A stretch of 32,538 nucleotides of DNA from Tepidibacillus decaturensis. Lineage in GTDB: Bacteria; Bacillota; Bacilli; Tepidibacillales; Tepidibacillaceae. The position numbers were made by a program, and so were the translations under genes. The first letter of the stretch is position 1. Each line of letters starts with the position of its first letter. The notes below the pieces were generated by a model, which did not search any database, was not told the DNA's origin, and saw only the letters and a list, made by a program, of their open reading frames with translations. Of the stretch, positions 9,200 through 18,051 are shown piece by piece. Where the stretch lies: NCBI RefSeq assembly GCF_001561915.1, contig NZ_LSKU01000001.1, positions 2,547,176 to 2,579,713 on the forward strand. Direction: 5' to 3'.

Positions 9200-9219
9200 T
9201 ACGTTCACCTCTTTCTGCC

Positions 9220-9239
9220 CTGATTCATTTGCGAATCAG
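9220..9239 (-). ncRNA. Hairpin in rpmE leader, candidate autoregulatory element
   Basis: CTGATTC and GAATCAG pair around a six-base loop in the 5' leader, about 20 bases before the rpmE start and followed by GGGCAG. Leaders of L31 genes in several phyla are proposed r-protein binding sites. Whether this hairpin fits that motif needs a covariance search. Confidence 0.35.
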
Positions 9240-9260
9240 AGTTATCACACACATAGAAAA

Positions 9261-15577: not shown

Positions 15578-17206
<1,629 letters not shown>

Positions 17207-17248
17207 TTAACTCTGGTATAGTTTAACCATCTTTTACCGTAAGGAAAC

Positions 17249-17294
17249 AAAAAAACAAAAGTGACAGCTTCCCTAAGATAGGGGCACTTTTGTT
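17249..17294 (-). promoter_or_regulatory. pyrG leader attenuator terminator
   Basis: Minus-strand stem AACAAAAGTG ... CACTTTTGTT with an inner CCCT/AGGG pairing, followed by TTTTTTT. It lies between the pyrG promoter and start codon. The 5' strand holds GCCCCTATCTT, which G-runs added at the 5' end of the transcript could pair with. It can also end transcripts coming from rpoE, which has no other terminator. Confidence 0.8.
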
Positions 17295-17348
17295 TTTATC
17301 CCATAAAATATTTTGTTGTTTATTTCGTTCGTTATGGAAAATCTTAAG

Positions 17349-17387
17349 CCCAAAAAGTAGTTTACTCGTTGTCGTCTACAATGTCAA
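17349..17387 (-). promoter_or_regulatory. pyrG promoter with GGGC start site
   Basis: Minus strand TTGACA (17382-17387), 17 bases, TAAACT (17359-17364), then seven bases and GGGC (17351-17348). The -35 box begins six bases after the rpoE stop. GGGC at the start site is what B. subtilis pyrG uses for CTP-sensitive addition of extra Gs. Confidence 0.75.
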
Positions 17388-17392
17388 GAAAT

Positions 17393-17962
17393 TTAATCAT
17401 CTTCTTCTAGATCATCGTCTTCTTCTGAATCATCATTTTCATCTAAATCAACATAATCGTTTTGATCGTCTAATTCCTCATCAGTATCATCTTCAAAAAG
17501 ATCTCCATCCTCTGTATCTTCTTCTAAATCAATGTCTTCGCTATCTTCTTCATCTTCATCATCTGCATATAATTCATCTTCTTCAATTAAGCCCTCTTCA
17601 TCTTCATCAAGAAGACCTTCTTCATCTAGTTCCTCGTCATCATAAACGGTATAATCGTCTTCTTCATCGTCGTCGTGACTATAGTGTAAAGCATCTGCTT
17701 GATCAACAGGATACCATTGCTTTAATCCCCATTCATTTTGGCCGACATGAGCAAATCTGCCATCAATATTGATTTCTGTATACAACTGTGCGATGTTTTC
17801 AATGATTTCCTCTTCAGTCATTCCTTTTAATTGAGCGATTTCTTTAACTAAATCCTGATAAAAATATGTTTTCTTTGTTTGCTTTAAAATTTCATAAGCT
17901 ATATCTACCATGGGTAGTTCTTTTAAACGTCTTTCTTCAATTTTTAAAACGATATCACTCAA
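17393..17962 (-). CDS. rpoE: RNA polymerase delta subunit
   Basis: Gram-positive RNA polymerase subunit that speeds recycling and lowers non-specific binding. About 189 residues: a folded N-terminal domain (ELPMVDIAYEILKQTKKTYF, then the LYTEINIDGRF and WGLKQWYPVDQ motifs) followed by about 90 residues that are nearly all Asp and Glu, the disordered nucleic-acid-mimicking tail. The start is uncertain: TTG 17962 has AAGGAG eleven bases upstream; ATG 17992 opens the frame but has no ribosome site. Confidence 0.92.
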   Translation of the reverse strand: MSDIVLKIEERRLKELPMVDIAYEILKQTKKTYFYQDLVKEIAQLKGMTEEEIIENIAQLYTEINIDGRFAHVGQNEWGLKQWYPVDQADALHYSHDDDEEDDYTVYDDEELDEEGLLDEDEEGLIEEDELYADDEDEEDSEDIDLEEDTEDGDLFEDDTDEELDDQNDYVDLDENDDSEEDDDLEEDD

Positions 17963-18051
17963 GTCCCGGCACACTCCTTCTTTAGTTACCATTTACTTTA
18001 TGAAAACCATTTTTGTTTACCATGATCTCAAATCTAACGAATGCAAACAAT

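Follow-up and report, generated by a model that had tools for sequence, protein, structure and literature searches.

The pyrG leader of Bacillus subtilis has a sigma-70-type promoter, a transcript that starts at GGGC, a terminator ahead of the gene and a C/U tract, GCUCCC, in the 5' arm of that terminator. A CTP-sensitive reiterative-transcription attenuator at this gene was reportedly described by Meng, Turnbough and Switzer in PNAS in 2004. Regulation of B. subtilis pyrG by reiterative transcription with attenuation is stated, with citations, in three papers (PMC4448216, PMC6431027, PMC4403831). Two of these place reiterative transcription at the pyrG start site of Streptococcus agalactiae and S. 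pyogenes (PMC4448216, PMC6431027), and the second names G as the base reiterated at the streptococcal start. In pneumococcus, according to PMC6212727, pyrG served as a non-responding negative control when PyrR switches were assayed with a reporter, which counts against such regulation there, in an assay that was no test of CTP limitation. PyrR-dependent pyr attenuators likewise attenuate pyrimidine genes in Bacilli; they depend on a protein (PMC4403831), and the leader described here differs from them in having no Rfam match.

Here we compare with these systems the pyrG leader of Tepidibacillus decaturensis, which lies in a 32,538-nucleotide stretch of DNA that was analysed as a whole (the window). 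The features of the locus are as follows.

17393 to 17992, minus strand: acidic open reading frame upstream of pyrG, with its stop at 17393
17382 to 17387, minus strand: -35 hexamer TTGACA of the pyrG promoter, full consensus
17359 to 17364, minus strand: -10 hexamer TAAACT of the pyrG promoter, 17-nt spacer to the -35
17348 to 17351, minus strand: predicted transcription start GGGC (slippery GGG and CTP-dependent fourth base), +1 at 17351
17192 to 17351, minus strand: pyrG 5' leader, 160 nt
17251 to 17297, minus strand: intrinsic terminator (attenuator) hairpin followed by a T-rich tail, predicted -16.2 kcal/mol
17280 to 17285, minus strand: GCCCCU in the terminator 5' arm, predicted partner of a 5' poly-G (with C)
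15578 to 17191, minus strand: pyrG, CTP synthase (537 aa), ATG at 17191; TIGR00337 at 895.5 bits against a cut-off of 462.75

The acidic frame is presumably rpoE, encoding the delta subunit of RNA polymerase; by eye, an acidic reading frame also lies directly ahead of pyrG in many relatives.

The promoter would set the start at exactly three Gs (17349-17351) followed by a C (17348), with 7 nt between the -10 and the first G. The initial annotation had placed GGGC eight bases past the -10, which agrees with our reading on the minus strand, the first G being the eighth base. Its description of a consensus -35 and -10 at 17-base spacing is half right, because the spacing and the -35 are as stated, but the -10 matches TATAAT at only 4/6 positions (10/12 for the two hexamers together). 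The pyrG promoter was the only promoter-like site in a minus-strand scan of 17150-17500. In the 2.96-Mb host genome, the pattern TTGACW N16-18 TANNNT N5-7 GGGC has a single match, at the pyrG leader, and its backward control has none in the same 2.96 Mb. The position of the promoter, conserved among relatives, points to 17351 as the probable +1.

As in the B. subtilis type, the leader adjoins pyrG, an intrinsic terminator lies between the predicted start and the gene, and the terminator 5' arm, AAAAACAAAAGUGCCCCUA, carries a C/U tract (CCCCU) with which poly-G can pair, its CCCC at 17284-17281. The GCCCCT that had been noted in the 5' strand of a terminator ahead of pyrG is thus at 17280-17285, within the 17297-17251 terminator and upstream of the ATG at 17191. 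GGGC start, terminator and 5'-arm C/U tract are all shared with B. subtilis pyrG. Unlike that leader, the window leader has GUGCCCCU and lacks a hairpin after GGG, and its templated C can join the poly-G pairing (GGGGGC with GCCCCU). Its tract also differs from that of two S. suis loci, which have a GGGCAC start, a CUCCC terminator and a 5-pair hairpin right after GGGC.

Four closed upstream open reading frames of 2 to 11 codons each lie within the 160-nt leader; two further frames, from +102 and +156, continue into pyrG, the latter starting five bases ahead of the pyrG ATG behind the same Shine-Dalgarno-like AGGAGG. The Rfam 15 covariance models gave no match at gathering score in the leader or nearby, and a PyrR binding loop, the mark of PyrR attenuators, was not found there. 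Elsewhere in the window, an L31-Firmicutes ribosomal protein leader at 9209-9241 on the minus strand (35 bits; gathering score 33.3) is the only Rfam match at gathering score; it probably precedes a short rpmE gene that is absent from the ORF list at 80 aa. The fold of the pyrG leader is not unusual against its shuffles (z = -1.05; 30/200 shuffles as stable); the case stands on arrangement and conservation.

From the arrangement we infer how a start site, slippage, CTP dependence and antitermination may be connected in T. decaturensis. Transcription would begin at GGGC. With ample CTP, the templated C would be added and the polymerase would leave the promoter; the leader would then form the 17297-17251 terminator, at which most transcripts would end. 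With low CTP, the polymerase would stall past GGG, slip and add extra Gs, and, while the 3' arm had still to be transcribed, the poly-G with the templated C could pair with GCCCCU of the 5' arm. Termination would then fail, and pyrG would be transcribed.

To place this arrangement among relatives, we examined 101 genomes, 100 of which have pyrG, as the initial annotation had proposed in suggesting that pyrG leaders be compared across related genera. The leaders scanned numbered 180, from the upstream DNA of 100 related genomes and from 80 named records; the scan sought a run of at least two Gs with C or T as the next base, behind a promoter with a score of at least 8. It was matched by 112/180 leaders, 99 with exactly three Gs and 13 with two; not one of the 112 has four or more Gs at the start. 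From the 99 we dropped one leader that has no terminator (L143) and three with folds of -5.1 to -8.6 kcal/mol, weaker than -9 (L154, L156, G008), which left 95; L115, named in the same filter, was already below the promoter score. Kept among the 95 are L120, despite a picked tract of UUU, and G087, despite tied C and G runs. By this pipeline, the GGGC start with a terminator is found in 71/100 related genomes, representing 28/35 families and 51 genera, and the other 24 of the 95 kept leaders come from named records. Four more genomes (G030, G076, G046, G096), read by eye, have GGGC with a C-run terminator, raising the count to 75/100; the pipeline missed two of them by its 420-base limit, one by picking another promoter and one through a weak -35. 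The arrangement is absent in 24/100 relatives, and in G003 the leader is cut by the contig end. Among the named records, 27 were taken to be Bacilli from their titles and names, and the 24 kept leaders all belong to these presumed Bacilli; of the other 53, three passed the GGG filter (L143, L154, L156), all three were removed, and none was kept. In one record titled as an Alistipes sp. MAG (L133), possibly a mis-binned contig, PyrG shares 68% identity with the Bacilli query.

The start itself is strongly constrained. The base after GGG is C in 95/95 kept leaders, with T permitted by the scan, and the base after GGGC varies (T 83, A 9, C 2, G 1); the -10 is separated from the first G by 7 nt in 78 leaders and by 6 in 17. 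As a guard against circularity, promoters were also picked blind to the start and GGGC was sought 5-8 bases past the -10: a promoter scoring at least 9 was found in 84/100, with GGGC in 62/84 and GGGA in 3. In the start-blind controls, GGG with any other base occurred in 1/16 for reversed sequence, 0/7 for the reverse complement and 0.6 of 18.6 for each shuffle.

The arrangement is also tied to pyrG. Across the 101 genomes, TTGACW N16-18 TANNNT N6-7 GGGCTY has 63 matches, of which 54 lie ahead of pyrG and 9 elsewhere, as judged by comparing the matches by hand with the pyrG locations. We considered other genes under the same switch and rejected them: the 9 matches away from pyrG are at background (12 in the backward control for the GGGCTY pattern in the same genomes), and they give no sign of further targets for the pattern searched.

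Some relatives depart from the arrangement. By eye, leaders of three families (f13: L031, L033, L036, L046; f28: L026; f21: L048, L069, L074, L088) retain a promoter and a hairpin resembling a terminator but lack GGGC and a C tract, and these are either plain terminators or attenuators that use another signal. One further leader (L094, genome G074) has a promoter and a CCCCC terminator ahead of pyrG with the start GGCC, two Gs only.

The terminator 5' arm is biased towards C. Its longest C run exceeds its longest G run in 93/95 leaders; in control terminators from the same loci, the C run is longer in 93/205, the G run in 65, and the two are equal in 47. C runs of three or more occur in the 5' arm of 87/95 leaders, and runs of four or more in 61/95 compared with 15/205 controls. 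C/U tracts that span five or more positions and include three Cs are also present in 39/205 control terminators, so the tract by itself is not rare. Pairs below the tract show compensatory variation (for the pair two positions ahead of the tract, CG 33, TA 25, TG 10, AT 10, GC 4, GT 1, unpaired 12), and at tract positions three and four a C is paired to G in 88/95 and 86/95 leaders. Six of the 95 leaders, namely five of the six from f22 and one from f25, have two or more tract Cs unpaired in the terminator. This hints weakly that the terminator may not be the only reason for keeping the Cs.

We then modelled the proposed switch by adding k extra Gs to the 5' end of the transcript and folding it as far as a point shortly beyond the tract, with the 3' arm yet to be made. 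For the window leader, the number of tract nucleotides paired to the 5' end is 2.97, 3.98, 4.56, 4.04 and 4.89 for zero to four extra Gs and about 4.9 thereafter. Across the 95 leaders, at least four tract nucleotides are paired in 0, 0, 78 and 85 at k = 0, 1, 2 and 3, and in 85 through k = 8. With four or eight Cs or Us added in place of Gs, 0/95 leaders pair to this extent, and with four or eight As 22/95 do, so that the folding test is not perfectly G-specific. Pairing in the window leader rises with added Gs, does not rise with Cs or Us, and rises little with As (2.97 to 3.18). At full-length equilibrium, the mean terminator pair probability falls from 0.93 with no added G to 0.53 with eight in the window, and from 0.93 to 0.78 over the 95 leaders. 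Because the complete terminator mostly wins at equilibrium, the mechanism must act during transcription.

The layout of the elements, the conservation of their positions and their pairing in the model are shown by the analysis, and they can be set against three other explanations. In one, the hairpin is the terminator of the upstream gene, and a constitutive pyrG promoter lies nearby with no regulation by slippage. The hairpin does sit between two genes, and the relatives in f13, f28 and f21 have the promoter and such a hairpin but neither GGGC nor a C tract. However, the promoter is upstream of the hairpin, with no second minus-strand site in 17150-17500, so pyrG's own transcript must cross it, and a plain terminator does not need a conserved GGGC or 5'-arm C; we regard this explanation as improbable. 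It is also conceivable that the leader is an attenuator controlled by a ligand or protein, that is, by a riboswitch, PyrR or a translated upstream frame, as a leader with an intrinsic terminator ahead of a pyrimidine gene might suggest; PMC11109978 gives the "pyrG motif" as a case in which predicting the mechanism is not trivial. Such control is very improbable given that the window's sole Rfam match at gathering score is the L31 leader elsewhere, that the sequence from GGGC to the terminator differs widely among families, and that the closed upstream frames are so short (2 to 11 codons).

GTP or CTP might instead act at GGGC through start-site or abortive effects alone, with no antitermination by poly-G. 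This would suit the GGGC start being the most conserved part of the leader, but it leaves unexplained why C runs exceed G runs in the 5' arm of 93/95 leaders and, a weaker point, why 6/95 keep two or more tract Cs that are unpaired in the terminator; we consider it extremely improbable. We conclude that the pyrG leader is very probably controlled by CTP-sensitive reiterative transcription with attenuation, of the B. subtilis type. The claim of the initial annotation that every element of this mechanism is visible is supported as to the sequence elements: GGG, the C after it and the C/U tract in the terminator 5' arm are present, and their position is kept in most sampled Bacilli.

Many leaders have a further element, a small hairpin after GGG. 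Of the 95 leaders, 45 have a perfect stem of at least four pairs that begins at +4, +5 or +6. The shuffled mean is 10.4 (sd 2.8, maximum 20; 300 shuffles), and six sets of three start points further downstream gave 9-17 of the 95 leaders each. Stem sequences are not the same from family to family (for example L135, L141, L107, L016), and the window's own leader has no hairpin after GGG. The hairpin might protect the 5' end or part the poly-G from the remaining leader; both are guesses. Pairing of the hairpin 3' strand (GGAG) with CUCC of the terminator was considered and rejected, as it fails for f22 hairpins (CUUC/GAAG).

Counted by family unit, the hairpin accompanies a YUCCC tract in 17/24 units and a GCCC tract in 4/23 (Fisher p = 0.00036), excluding five units whose tract is of neither type. 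On a PyrG tree of 49 rows, tract class changes three times and the hairpin ten times; the tree holds 49/51 kept leaders with long loci, since no usable reading frame was found for the other two (L002 and L021, from the window's family). Tract class follows descent, so the association of hairpin and tract is confounded with descent, with too few independent pairs for a test. The window leader carries the GCCC type of its clade. A doubtful proposal is that the switch has two builds with different CTP thresholds: one with a GCCC tract in which the templated C takes part in the antiterminator, and one with a YUCCC tract that uses poly-G alone together with the hairpin. If so, in the GCCC build of the window and its clade, one or two slips may suffice, because the templated C would join the antiterminator and the templated GGGC would already form part of it; in the YUCCC build, the hairpin starting at +4 to +6 would keep the poly-G apart from what follows in the leader.

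Since reiterative transcription with attenuation has already been described for B. subtilis pyrG, the T. decaturensis leader is another instance and not a new mechanism; it is a good but ordinary case of a switch found in most relatives examined. What the comparison adds is its breadth, the tie to pyrG (54/63 promoter matches) and the two types of tract. The pyrG slippage switch is recognisable from sequence in most Bacilli sampled, and the searched pattern of GGGCTY starts shows no excess away from pyrG. The G count, with no run of four Gs and with C as the next base, accords with what a B. subtilis paper on the number of Gs announces in its title, and it gives testable predictions on the CTP threshold across lineages.
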